From Prochlorococcus marinus str. MIT 0919 (GTDB lineage Bacteria > Cyanobacteriota > Cyanobacteriia > PCC-6307 > Cyanobiaceae), in assembly GCF_027359375.1 (NCBI RefSeq), contig NZ_CP114779.1, forward strand, positions 930,001 to 994,000: DNA of 64,000 nucleotides, given 5' to 3'. The notes under the pieces were generated by a model that was given only the letters and a program-made list of their open reading frames with translations, searched no databases and had not been told where the DNA came from. This document shows, piece after piece, positions 22,048-26,916 of this stretch. Position numbers and translations under genes: made by a program. Positions within the stretch are counted from its first letter, which is position 1. Each line of letters opens with the position of its first letter.

Positions 22048-24729
22048 TTGACGACTGTCTCTACAAGTAAGTGCGAAAAATCATCTCGACTTGAACCAAT
22101 TGACTTTCAGAGACTTTTGGATCCAAATATTCATAAGCCTGCACAATATATGGGACATGAGCTTGGGGTGAAAACAAAAGATTGGAAGTCAAACAATATT
22201 CGTTGGGTATTAAGTTATCCCGAGCTTTATGAAGTAGGCGCCAGCAATTTAGGTCATATCATCCTTTATTCAATATTAAACAATATTCCAGGGCAACTTT
22301 GTGATAGAGCATATTTACCCGAAGTTGATTTCGCTCAAAGACTGAGAGAAAGAGAAGTTCCTTTATTTGCAGTCGAATCTCGCATCCCCATTAAGGAATT
22401 TAATGTGCTTGGTTTTAGTCTTAGTTATGAACTAGGAGCAACCAATATTTTAGAGATGCTTGATCTTGCTGGTATACCTATTTATGCAAAGAATCGATCT
22501 AACCTTGCCTTTAGTGAAATTAATTCCCACCCATTAGTTTTCGCAGGAGGTCCTACAGCAACAAGCAATCCTGAACCTTATGCAGAATTTTTTGATTTTT
22601 TTGCACTAGGTGATGGAGAAGAGCTTTTACCTGAGATTGGATTGGTTTTATCAGAATGCAAGAAATCAAATCTTCAGCGTTCAGAATCACTAATTTTACT
22701 CTCTGAGTTAAAAGGAGTCTATGTACCCGCTTTATACAAACTCAAAGAAAATTCCAATTTAGTTGAACCAATACATTCATCTACGCCGCAAAAAATAAAG
22801 CGACGTGTATCAAAACCAATTCCTCATTATGGGATGGGATTGGTGCCAAATATTGAAACAGTGCATGACAGACTAACAATCGAAATTAGAAGAGGCTGTA
22901 CGCGTGGATGCCGTTTCTGTCAACCTGGAATGCTAACAAGGCCTGCAAGAGATGTTGAACCGACTGAAGTAATAAATGCTGTAGAAGAAGGGATGAAAAA
23001 AACTGGCTACAGCGACTTTTCTCTTTTATCTCTTAGCTGCAGCGACTATCTATCATTACCTGCAGTGGGTGTTGAACTGAAAAATCGTCTTGCTGATAGA
23101 AATGTCACCTTGCAATTGCCTAGTCAAAGAGTAGATAGATTTGATGACAACATCGCCCATATTCTCGGAGGAAACCGTAAAGCAGGACTTACTTTTGCGC
23201 CAGAAGCAGGGACTCAAAGACTCAGGGATATAGTCAACAAAGGGCTAACAGATGAGGAGTTGCTTAATGGAATTCGTGAAGCAATGCGAAATGGTTACAA
23301 GAAGATCAAGCTTTATTTCATGATTGGGTTGCCAGGGGAAACGGATTTTGATGTTATTGGCATTGCAAAAACTTGCGAATCTCTTCAAAACAAATGCAAA
23401 GACCTTGGACATTTGAATTTGAAAATAACAATTAGCAATTTCACTCCTAAACCGCATACTCCTTTCCAATGGCATAGTGTTTCAACAGTTGAGTTCCATA
23501 GAAGACAAAAACTTTTAAAAGAAGCATTTTTCTCACTTCGAGGTATAAAAATAAATTTCACTGATATAAGAATTTCTTCTATTGAAGATTTTCTTGGCCG
23601 GGGAAATAGAAGATTAGCGCCTGTTATAGAGGAAGCCTGGAAAGCCGGAGCTGGAATGGATGCATGGTTTGAATCGCAAGAGCGCGCATATCAAGCATGG
23701 TCACATGCAATTAAGAATGCAGGACTTGATAAGCATTTTAGAAATCTTGAAATGGGTAATTGGAATGAAGCAAAAACATTTAAGAAGGAAGAATTAATCG
23801 ATTTCTGCTCACAATCTCTACCTTGGGACCACATTGATACTGGAGTAGAGAAAACATGGCTTATGCAAGATTTACAATTAGCATTAAAAGAAATTGTAGT
23901 AGATGATTGCTCATTTAATGCATGCAGCAGTTGCGGAGTATGTGGTTCTGAGTTAGGCCATAATCAAATCGCAAAGCCCCCTGAAATTCCCTTACAGAAA
24001 AAAAGTCAAGAAACTAAATCAGAAAAGAATTGTCGGATAAGACTAAAATTTACAAAAACGAACCCTATGCATCTTATAAGCCATTTAGATCTATTGAGAT
24101 TATTAGAAAGAGCATTAAGAAGAAGTCAACTCCCTGTTAGCTATTCCCAAGGTTTTCATCAACTTCCTAGATTGCAAGTTGCACTCGCACTTCCACTAGG
24201 GATAGAAGCTGAAGGTGAGTGGATGGATATTGATTTCCATGAAGATATTGAACCAAAAGTGATAAAGCAAGTAATGCAAAAGTTTCTGCCTATAGGAATC
24301 AATTTACTTAATGCAAATAAAATAACAATAAACAAAACTAGTCTTTCTCAGGAACTATCTGAAGCTATTTGGTCTTTTAATTTAAATTTAACTTCAGGAA
24401 GACAAATACCAATAGATAAATACCAAGAAGCTATAAATTATATTTCAAATAAGAATAGACTTGAATGGTGTGATCTTGATAAAAAAGGTAGAAAGCGTGC
24501 AAGGAATTTTAAGCCTGAATTAAAAGACCTTTTTATAAAGCAAAGTATCAATGAAAAAAATACATCTAATTCTCTAAACAAAATAAAACTGCAATTAAAT
24601 ACATTTATCAGTCCTCAAGGTACAAGCATCAAACCAAGCTATATAAAGCACTGGATAGAAGAATATTTAGAAGAGCCTTTAGAGATAACAGAACTGAAAA
24701 GGGATCAATTGGTCTTAAAAAGATGCTAA
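22048..24729 (+). CDS. TIGR03960-family radical SAM protein with C-terminal DUF2344 domain
   Basis: Two-part protein of 893 residues. The N-terminal ~600 residues hold a B12-binding-like fold and a radical SAM domain with iron-sulfur motif RRGCTRGCRFCQPG near residue 285, as in TIGR03960. A cysteine-rich segment (CSFNACSSCGVCG) follows. The last ~230 residues match DUF2344/TIGR03936 (FTKTNPMHLISHLDLLRLLERALRR). In many cyanobacteria this gene lies immediately before rne, as here, and a role in RNA metabolism has been suggested only from that context. It starts with TTG. I do not know its substrate. Confidence 0.88.
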   Translation: MTTVSTSKCEKSSRLEPIDFQRLLDPNIHKPAQYMGHELGVKTKDWKSNNIRWVLSYPELYEVGASNLGHIILYSILNNIPGQLCDRAYLPEVDFAQRLREREVPLFAVESRIPIKEFNVLGFSLSYELGATNILEMLDLAGIPIYAKNRSNLAFSEINSHPLVFAGGPTATSNPEPYAEFFDFFALGDGEELLPEIGLVLSECKKSNLQRSESLILLSELKGVYVPALYKLKENSNLVEPIHSSTPQKIKRRVSKPIPHYGMGLVPNIETVHDRLTIEIRRGCTRGCRFCQPGMLTRPARDVEPTEVINAVEEGMKKTGYSDFSLLSLSCSDYLSLPAVGVELKNRLADRNVTLQLPSQRVDRFDDNIAHILGGNRKAGLTFAPEAGTQRLRDIVNKGLTDEELLNGIREAMRNGYKKIKLYFMIGLPGETDFDVIGIAKTCESLQNKCKDLGHLNLKITISNFTPKPHTPFQWHSVSTVEFHRRQKLLKEAFFSLRGIKINFTDIRISSIEDFLGRGNRRLAPVIEEAWKAGAGMDAWFESQERAYQAWSHAIKNAGLDKHFRNLEMGNWNEAKTFKKEELIDFCSQSLPWDHIDTGVEKTWLMQDLQLALKEIVVDDCSFNACSSCGVCGSELGHNQIAKPPEIPLQKKSQETKSEKNCRIRLKFTKTNPMHLISHLDLLRLLERALRRSQLPVSYSQGFHQLPRLQVALALPLGIEAEGEWMDIDFHEDIEPKVIKQVMQKFLPIGINLLNANKITINKTSLSQELSEAIWSFNLNLTSGRQIPIDKYQEAINYISNKNRLEWCDLDKKGRKRARNFKPELKDLFIKQSINEKNTSNSLNKIKLQLNTFISPQGTSIKPSYIKHWIEEYLEEPLEITELKRDQLVLKRC

Positions 24730-24975
24730 AATAATAAAAGGGTTAGTAAAAGGCTCCTCCTGAGCTTACAACCTTAGTTTTTAGGAAGGAAGTTGTAGTT
24801 CTCTCCTTATTGAGCCTGGTTACTTTAACCAGGCAGACTCTCGAGCAAAGTCTCAGTTAAGAGGTTCTTTCTATTTCTTCCAAAGATCTTTGGTCATTAT
24901 TTTTATCTAGCTCATCGCTGCAATACTGCAAGTTTTGAAAGAACTTAGCTAAGCAGAATTATCACTTTTGATTAA
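24730..24975 (+). promoter_or_regulatory. rne 5' leader with several stem-loops
   Basis: This 246-bp gap contains GCTC/GAGC (24753-24756/24762-24765), ACAAC/GTTGT (24768-24772/24792-24796), a perfect nine-bp hairpin GCCTGGTTA-CTT-TAACCAGGC (24814-24834), AGACT/AGTCT (24835-24839/24849-24853), a perfect 14-bp palindrome CCAAAGATCTTTGG (24880-24893) and CTTAGCTAAG (24944-24953). No coding frame is convincing. RNase E is known to control its own mRNA through the leader in several bacteria, including cyanobacteria, so this is a likely site of autoregulation. Confidence 0.65.
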
Positions 24976-26916
24976 ATGCCGCAGAAAGTTGTCATCGCAG
25001 AGCAACTGCGCATAGCAGCCTTGCTTACCGATGAGCGAGTAGACGAGTTAATCGTCGCCCAAGGTCGCTACCAAATTGGCGACGTATACCTAGGAACAAT
25101 AGAAAATGTCCTGCCTGGTATAGATGCAGCATTTGTAAATATTGGCGCAAGTGAAAAAAATGGCTTTATACATGTAACAGATTTAGGTCCATTAAAGAAA
25201 AAAAAGAATGCTGCAGGCATTACTGAATTATTAGAGCCACGACAAAAGGTTCTAGTACAAGTAATGAAAGAACCAACGGGTACTAAAGGGCCAAGACTGA
25301 CAGGAAATCTTGCTTTACCTGGAAGATATCTTGTCCTGCAACCCAATGGGCAAGGGGTGAATATTTCTCGTCGAATTAACTCTGAAAATGAACGAAACCG
25401 GCTAAGAGCTTTAGGTGTCTTAGTTAAGCCTCCAGGAACAGGCCTGCTAATGCGTTCAGAAGCAGATGGTGTAAACGAAGAGTTATTAATTACAGATCTA
25501 GAGAATCTTTTAAAGCAATGGGAATCAATACAACAAGCGGCAGAAAATTCCTCTCCACCTATACTTCTAAATAGAGAAGAAGACTTTGTAAATAGAATAC
25601 TTAGAGACCACTCTAGTCCTGAGCTTTCCAAGATTATTGTAGAAACTTCTAAAGCAGTCGAACGAGCTAAAAATTTCCTAGGTTCTCATACAAATGTAAT
25701 TGTTGAATGTCATGATCAACCCATAGACCTGCTAGAGCATTATAAAATAAATGCCGCTATTTTTAATGCTCTAAAGCCAAGAGTAGATCTCCCTTCAGGT
25801 GGATATATAATAATTGAACCTACAGAAGCTCTAACAGTTATAGATGTCAACTCGGGTTCATTTACAAGCTCTGCCAATTCAAGAGAAACAGTACTTTGGA
25901 CAAATTGTGAAGCAGCTATCGAAATAGCAAGACAACTAAAATTAAGAAATATTGGAGGAGTCATTATTATAGATTTTATTGATATGGATTCCAGAAGAGA
26001 TCAACTTCAATTATTAGAGTATTTTTCATCAGCAATTAAAGATGATAAATCTAGGCCCCAAATAGCACAGCTCACTGAGCTTGGATTAGTTGAACTAACA
26101 AGAAAAAGACAAGGGCAAAATATCTATGAGTTATTTAGCAAGCCATGTTCTAATTGCAATGGGTTGGGACATACTCCTGAAATACCTATCAAAGAAGAAA
26201 TACAGCCTTTGGCTTCTATTGGAGGTTTAATACAAAAAGAAGAATCATCTAAAAAATTTCAGCCTTTGAAAGAAGTTAGCAAGGGTAAGAATATTGAGTC
26301 TGCCCAAATTAATGACGCTATAAGTTCTCAAAATAATTCAGAAGTTAATAATCAAGAAAATGAATTAGAGCAAAATTCTATAAAGCAAGAGCCAGATCTA
26401 ATTGCAATTAAAATGAGTCAAGATGAAGAATATGTATTTAGTTCTTTAGGAATAAATCCTACATTATTATTAGATAAAGATCCAGAAAATGAAAATTTAT
26501 TAGTTCATATAGTTAGGCCTGGAGAAGATGAGAAAATCATCCTTGACGAAGCCAAGCAAAGAATTACTTCTATTGGTAATAAACGAAAAAAGAAATCTAA
26601 AAATGTAGTTAATAGAGCATCCAATAAATCTAACTTAGAAACCCTAGAATCAAGCAATAAGGAAACGGATAATAATTCTACTTTTGCGACAGAAGAACCG
26701 TCAAATGAAAAGCTAATGCATAAAGAAGATACTATTCAGAAAGAAGTTATTGAGCAAGAAGGTATTGAGCAAGATGCTGCTAAAAAAGAAGCTATTGAAA
26801 AAAAAGATGTAACTCAAAAAGAAAACTCAAGAGAATTAGAAGATCCTGTTCAAAAAGAAGCTGAAGCTGAAGCTGAAGATCCCCGAAGACGCAGAAGAAG
26901 GTCTTCAGCAACGTAA
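24976..26916 (+). CDS. rne: Ribonuclease E/G
   Basis: Main mRNA-decay endonuclease. It has 646 residues. The N-terminal S1 domain begins near GDVYLGTIENVLPGIDAAFVNIG; the catalytic DNase I-like domain carries VIDVNSGSF and the metal-site segment GGVIIIDFIDM, and the zinc link is CSNCNGLGH. After about residue 400 comes a low-complexity, charged tail with degenerate KEAIE-like repeats. It ends in DPRRRRRRSSAT, containing the arginine-rich nonapeptide that cyanobacterial RNase E uses to bind polynucleotide phosphorylase. The start ATG follows a 246-bp structured leader; rnhB begins 10 bp after the stop. Confidence 0.96.
   Translation: MPQKVVIAEQLRIAALLTDERVDELIVAQGRYQIGDVYLGTIENVLPGIDAAFVNIGASEKNGFIHVTDLGPLKKKKNAAGITELLEPRQKVLVQVMKEPTGTKGPRLTGNLALPGRYLVLQPNGQGVNISRRINSENERNRLRALGVLVKPPGTGLLMRSEADGVNEELLITDLENLLKQWESIQQAAENSSPPILLNREEDFVNRILRDHSSPELSKIIVETSKAVERAKNFLGSHTNVIVECHDQPIDLLEHYKINAAIFNALKPRVDLPSGGYIIIEPTEALTVIDVNSGSFTSSANSRETVLWTNCEAAIEIARQLKLRNIGGVIIIDFIDMDSRRDQLQLLEYFSSAIKDDKSRPQIAQLTELGLVELTRKRQGQNIYELFSKPCSNCNGLGHTPEIPIKEEIQPLASIGGLIQKEESSKKFQPLKEVSKGKNIESAQINDAISSQNNSEVNNQENELEQNSIKQEPDLIAIKMSQDEEYVFSSLGINPTLLLDKDPENENLLVHIVRPGEDEKIILDEAKQRITSIGNKRKKKSKNVVNRASNKSNLETLESSNKETDNNSTFATEEPSNEKLMHKEDTIQKEVIEQEGIEQDAAKKEAIEKKDVTQKENSRELEDPVQKEAEAEAEDPRRRRRRSSAT

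Follow-up and report, generated by a model that had tools for sequence, protein, structure and literature searches.

In the window, meaning the whole 64,000-nucleotide stretch that was analysed, the RNase E gene rne is preceded by a leader of 246 bases (24730-24975). The question is whether this leader is a conserved RNA element and, if it is, what such an element would do for rne. Comparison with related leaders supports a real RNA element with a conserved structure. With a probability of about 0.6, this element is a cis-acting feedback element that would set the level of RNase E by limiting its own mRNA, a reading that draws on sequence comparison and on analogy with other cyanobacteria.

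The source genome has 1,716,770 bases, and among named genomes those closest to it are Prochlorococcus. The leader runs from the stop codon (24727-24729) of an upstream gene for a radical SAM protein (TIGR03960/TIGR03936) to the ATG of rne at 24976, in agreement with the spacing given in the earlier note. The rne product matches NCBIfam TIGR00757 above the cut-off. Its top match is NF052586, the cyanobacterial RNase E, at 713 bits, which is under the 900-bit cut-off. The gene for RNase HII is next after rne. The features of the locus are as follows:

24724..24732, + strand: extended -10 box TGCTAAAAT, 5' of every hairpin; predicted transcription start near 24737-24740
24740..24746, + strand: 5' strand of helix P1 (GGGUUAG), pairing with 24907-24913; predicted probability 0.91-0.96 in the window
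24752..24766, + strand: hairpin H1 (GGCUC/GAGCU); predicted probability 0.88-1.00
24771..24791, + strand: 5' strand of helices P2 and P3
24814..24834, + strand: hairpin H3; predicted probability 0.76-1.00 in the window
24874..24894, + strand: 3' strand of helices P3 and P2, containing a palindrome (24880-24893)
24896..24906, + strand: AU-only linker, candidate RNase E entry site
24907..24913, + strand: 3' strand of helix P1 (CUAGCUC), pairing with 24740-24746
24918..24930, + strand: hairpin H6 (GCAG/CUGC in relatives)
24976..26916, + strand: rne, encoding RNase E (646 aa)

Promoter box and predicted transcription start

Of 192 distinct leaders, 167 carry the box TG[CT]TANNNT between -299 and -216, versus 7.0 (sd 3.0) in shuffled sequences, and 25 lack it. 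The radical SAM gene of the window ends within the box, which takes in both its last codon and its stop codon. The same kind of overlap, with an open frame of at least 45 codons, is present in 100 of the leaders that carry the box and absent from the other 67. Because of this overlap with the end of the upstream protein, part of the conservation of the box may be coding.

In genome G151, whose rne coordinates agree with those given in print for MED4, the MED4 start TSS1 lies at -220, 5 nt past the end of the box at -225. The same spacing would place the start in the window near 24737. A start downstream of the hairpins would have counted against the earlier note; by sequence, the conserved extended -10 box and the MED4 TSS1 point to one that is 5' of all of them. 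From the box and the MED4 start we infer that the leader of this strain lies in the rne 5' UTR, 3' of the transcription start.

Folding and conservation of the leader

The description of the leader as highly structured in the earlier note is not borne out by its folding energy, which is ordinary (z -1.5 to -1.8). The 261-nt fold has a z of -1.53, with 16 of 200 shuffles equally good. The 237-nt leader has a z of -1.78, and 8.75% of 160 random stretches from the same window fold as low or lower. The reverse strand has a folding energy similar to that of the leader strand. Judged by sequence comparison, the non-randomness of the leader comes from conservation, not from stability.

The rne loci used for comparison were gathered from 80 named contigs and from family genomes, of which 373 of the 400 sampled have rne. 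Minimum-energy folds were made for 18 leaders: L211, which is more distant, and 17 that belong to the window's clade. L211 was folded but excluded from the clade set used in later tests, its leader alignment being poor. Two loci (L167 and L179) were dropped when the recognition pattern missed their rne start; in two more the start was recognised by hand, and L193 entered the clade set and L192 became a held-out locus. The alignment termed A1 contains 17 leaders, with the window left out, and is the source of a 43-pair structural model, R1.

Most of the 18 minimum-energy folds share a common plan. It consists of P1 (GGGUUAG/CUAACUC), H1, the long-range helices P2 and P3, the inner hairpin H3, and the small hairpin H6 after P1. 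When the 43-pair structure is placed on A1, 89% of cells are paired, compared with 30-55% when the structure is slid along the alignment. Changes on both sides of a pair are present in 8 pairs, versus 2.5 in shuffles, and none of 500 shuffles reaches 8. By sequence, then, most paired positions are preserved with compensatory changes, which is the conservation that the earlier note had proposed to look for.

The individual helices differ in how they are preserved. Of the helices of the window leader, 188 could be scored, and P1 is the best preserved of those with at least 7 bp: 93% of its cells are paired in 18 leaders, versus 80% under a tree null in which columns evolve independently (uncorrected p 0.007). 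In A1, H1 has 91.8% of cells paired with few changes. H6 has 89.4% of cells paired in A1 and is weaker in the window, where that register contains a U-U mismatch. With sequence as its only anchor, P3 has 173 of 198 cells paired across 18 leaders, in a region whose letters vary little. The best long-range helix of each leader is P3 in 14 of 18 window-clade leaders, the exceptions being the window, L002, L084 and L003. In the window, the top-scoring long-range helix is a 10-bp helix, AGGUUCUUUC/GAAAGAACUU (24862-24871 / 24936-24945). It would be a competitor of P1, and its 8-bp core, the part that was tested, is predicted with a probability of 0.01.

The perfect 9-bp hairpin pointed out in the earlier note is present, with arms at 24814-24822 and 24826-24834, and corresponds to H3. 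In the test of this hairpin, only the best hairpin of each leader's 81-98-nt inner domain was taken. In 17 of 18 leaders (the exception is L182), H3 is the top hairpin of the inner domain and starts 21-26 nt past the P3 strand; this placement has a combined p of 2e-6 versus shuffles, uncorrected for relatedness. The stems diverge between leaders and include GCCUGGUUA/UAACCAGGC, UCUGGU/ACCAGA, GAUUCGGC/GCCGAGUU and AUCCGG/CCGGAU. On this comparison, the 9-bp hairpin is the window's version of a hairpin that is conserved in place while its stem sequences change.

In 18 leaders, a covariation test of all pairs has a best E of 1.9, the set being too small for power, and a blind helix scan has a best E of 0.61, with no significant helix. 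R1 locates the held-out window leader at 24739-24932 with 99.2 bits, and the next best match in the 64 kb has 10.1 bits. A sequence-only model gives the held-out window 75.6 bits. In 300 family genomes, R1 has 26 matches in 25 genomes, all just upstream of rne. The 18 strong matches (99 bits or more) are the 17 training leaders and the window. Seven weaker sense matches have 27-42 bits, and there is one antisense match, to the same leader, in G066. In the stretches fetched for G145, G295 and G159, rne starts 38, 39 and 48 nt past the end of the match. The other 275 family genomes, which include Synechococcus-like genera, have no R1 match at E 0.001 under stricter filters, and R1 thus describes a low-light Prochlorococcus fold.

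In 66 further loci, R1 has 16 full-length matches below E 0.001. Across the window and these 16 leaders, pairing extends to 79.3% of cells, and both-side changes are seen in 30 of the 43 pairs. Both-side changes occupy 90 cells, versus 41 in shuffles and 13-23 when the structure is slid. Less weight is given to this count because the alignment is fitted to the model and is gap-ridden at P1; the placement of H3, the long-range helix of each leader, the fold of the NATL-like leaders and the anchoring of P3 are preferred as evidence. Among 17 held-out sources, the structural model scores more bits than the sequence-only model in 13 and fewer in four (L087, L143, L165 and L169). Four of the 13 gains (L198, L199, L201 and L202) have no sequence-only match among those listed. 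For many distant sources the E-value of the sequence-only model is the lower one, and plain sequence homology therefore explains much of the detection.

A leader of this kind could also be bound by another protein or control translation, unrelated to RNase E feedback. The specific conserved hairpins would suit such a role, and SS120-like relatives have a GAGCU/AGCUC hairpin just 5' of the start codon. However, no Rfam leader family matches and the window has only a weak form of the start-codon hairpin, and this explanation is regarded as very unlikely.

The palindrome and the AU-only linker

The 14-bp palindrome that the earlier note had singled out is perfect (CCAAAGATCTTTGG, 24880-24893). 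As a hairpin, it is neither conserved nor predicted to form: 61% of cells are paired versus 66% under the null, and its probability in the window is 0.01. The palindrome hairpin and P2/P3 are mutually exclusive. P3 has a predicted probability of 0.85-0.97 in the window, versus 0.01 for the palindrome hairpin, which suggests that the palindrome bases act as the 3' strand of P2/P3. The two elements named in the earlier note thus fare differently, the 9-bp hairpin being supported as conserved and the palindrome appearing as one strand of a long-range helix.

All 11 bases of the linker at 24896-24906 are A or U. In the fold predicted for the window, 24902-24905 are mostly paired, probably with the A-run that follows the P1 strand, and the rest of the linker (24896-24901 and 24906) is mostly open. 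In 16 of the 17 leaders compared, the 14 nt ahead of the 3' strand of P1 are open to a greater degree than the leader on average. RNase E prefers AU-rich single strands beside stems, and the AU-rich linker between P2 and P1 appears to be the likeliest RNase E site.

The same bases could instead belong to an attenuator. Transcription would then end prematurely at a weak terminator made of the palindrome or another hairpin and the U-rich tract at 24896-24906, with P2/P3 as the antiterminator. The position of the U-rich tract after the palindrome is consistent with this, as is the mutual exclusion of the palindrome hairpin and P2/P3. In Synechocystis, the authors of PMC10989929 infer that, in the absence of UV, 95.9% of polymerases fail to reach the rne coding region. 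An attenuator is nonetheless unlikely in the window, where no intrinsic terminator or terminator-like site is found in 24400-25100 and where the palindrome hairpin has the low probability given above and is not preserved in relatives.

A two-state switch is more doubtful. Here, the 5' GGGUU would pair either with AACCUU (an extended H1, 24739-24744 / 24770-24775) or with CUAGCUC (P1, which would close a domain held by the P2/P3 stem). RNase E or the polymerase at the U-rich tract would read the state, and leader cleavage would thereby be coupled to premature termination. In the clade, each of the two partners of GGGUU is preserved more than expected (p 0.007 and 0.027, uncorrected for the 188 helices scored).

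As a cis-acting feedback element, the preferred reading, the leader would work as follows. Transcription would start near 24737-24740, as the conserved box and the MED4 start suggest. The RNA would close into a domain with its 5' end in P1, P2/P3 as a long-range stem and H3 inside, a fold that conservation supports. The partly open, AU-rich linker would sit between P2 and P1. Plentiful RNase E would enter internally, at the linker or at another AU-rich open site, and lead to the decay of its own mRNA. When RNase E is busy or scarce, the rne mRNA would survive. The step of entry and decay is modelled on Synechocystis, on MED4 and on the preference of the enzyme for AU-rich single strands. Two guesses go with this reading: the paired 5' end may force RNase E to enter internally, and H3 or P2/P3 may serve for docking.

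Leaders of other clades and known systems

Fourteen NATL-like leaders, folded with RNAalifold on a plain MAFFT alignment that was not fitted to R1, have the same plan in other letters. Their helices are UUAACGUC/GGCGUUAA and CUUAAAGGGA/UCUCUUUAAG, followed by a GCAG/CUGC hairpin that corresponds to H6. Within this clade, 3 of the 35 consensus pairs have both-side changes. In each of 16 NATL-like leaders, the best long-range helix is P2 or P3. The long-range helix signal is absent from 33 other low-light leaders (combined p 0.39).

Local hairpins make up the consensus of 26 Synechococcus and MIT9313-like leaders; of its 15 pairs, 11 have both-side changes. The 5' region of the Synechococcus-type leaders is paired. 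A separate hairpin, GGAGU/ACUCC, lies some 100 nt 5' of rne and is nearly invariant in these 26 leaders (e.g. L103:1248-1503; alignment A6, columns 163-179). It contains a Shine-Dalgarno-like AGGAG, and no start codon is seen nearby.

In 19 high-light leaders, MED4 included, the consensus is a 12-pair 5'-terminal hairpin only. This hairpin lies within the first 45 nt past the -10 box (L213, which is MED4, L055-L081 and others), at the mapped MED4 start, and the published MED4 TSS2 (-200) sits in its loop region. Since MED4 and the other high-light leaders keep just the 5'-terminal hairpin, feedback, if present in MED4, needs no such fold as that of the window.

Pairing near the predicted start is the sole feature common to the clades, as P1/H1 in the window's clade, the 12-pair hairpin in the high-light leaders and the paired 5' region in the Synechococcus-type leaders. 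Just this 5'-terminal pairing might matter, by blocking 5'-end-dependent decay and so stabilising the mRNA without feedback. The low-light clades, however, also preserve H3, P2/P3 and H6, which would be superfluous for a simple shield, and we consider this explanation improbable.

Known Rfam families were compared with the leader. None matches at the gathering score, and four sub-threshold matches are far under the cut-offs. The E. coli element rne5 (RF00040) is likewise a structured leader of an RNase E gene that mediates feedback, as described in PMC10989929 and PMC9692554. It differs from the window leader in its helices and its lineage, and it has no match in the window's own genome, whereas the E. 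coli control is positive. The element rne-II (RF01756) is also structured, a probable cis element named after rne, and is confined to Pseudomonadales in the table of PMC2864571. It has no match to the leader in full Rfam scans, even at E up to 10. No description of the fold of the window leader is present in Rfam or in the articles searched.

The closest systems are cyanobacterial. In Synechocystis 6803, the rne 5' UTR is also a long leader, and RNase E cuts it at a U-rich site next to structured RNA; autoregulation has experimental support there, with feedback proposed as described in PMC10989929. That leader has 583 nt versus about 237 nt in the window, where the AU linker is the candidate site. 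Compared with a site of the Synechocystis type, the AU-only linker of the window adjoins P1 and P2 and is predicted to be partly paired. In MED4, the same gene has the same promoter box at a similar distance, and autofeedback via the rne 5' UTR is stated, with a citation, in PMC9692554. According to the same paper, cyanophage infection bypasses the MED4 rne leader by means of a promoter at the start codon, with a start inside the first codon. Unlike in the window, P1-P3 and H3 are not found in MED4.

In these abundant ocean phototrophs, RNase E governs how fast RNA decays. The named helices make the statement that rne has a regulatory 5' UTR testable piece by piece. The folded low-light and almost bare high-light leaders are a natural experiment on how much of the element is needed. 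Relative to the known systems, the idea of control through the leader is already established, and what is new is the element itself and its near loss in high-light strains.
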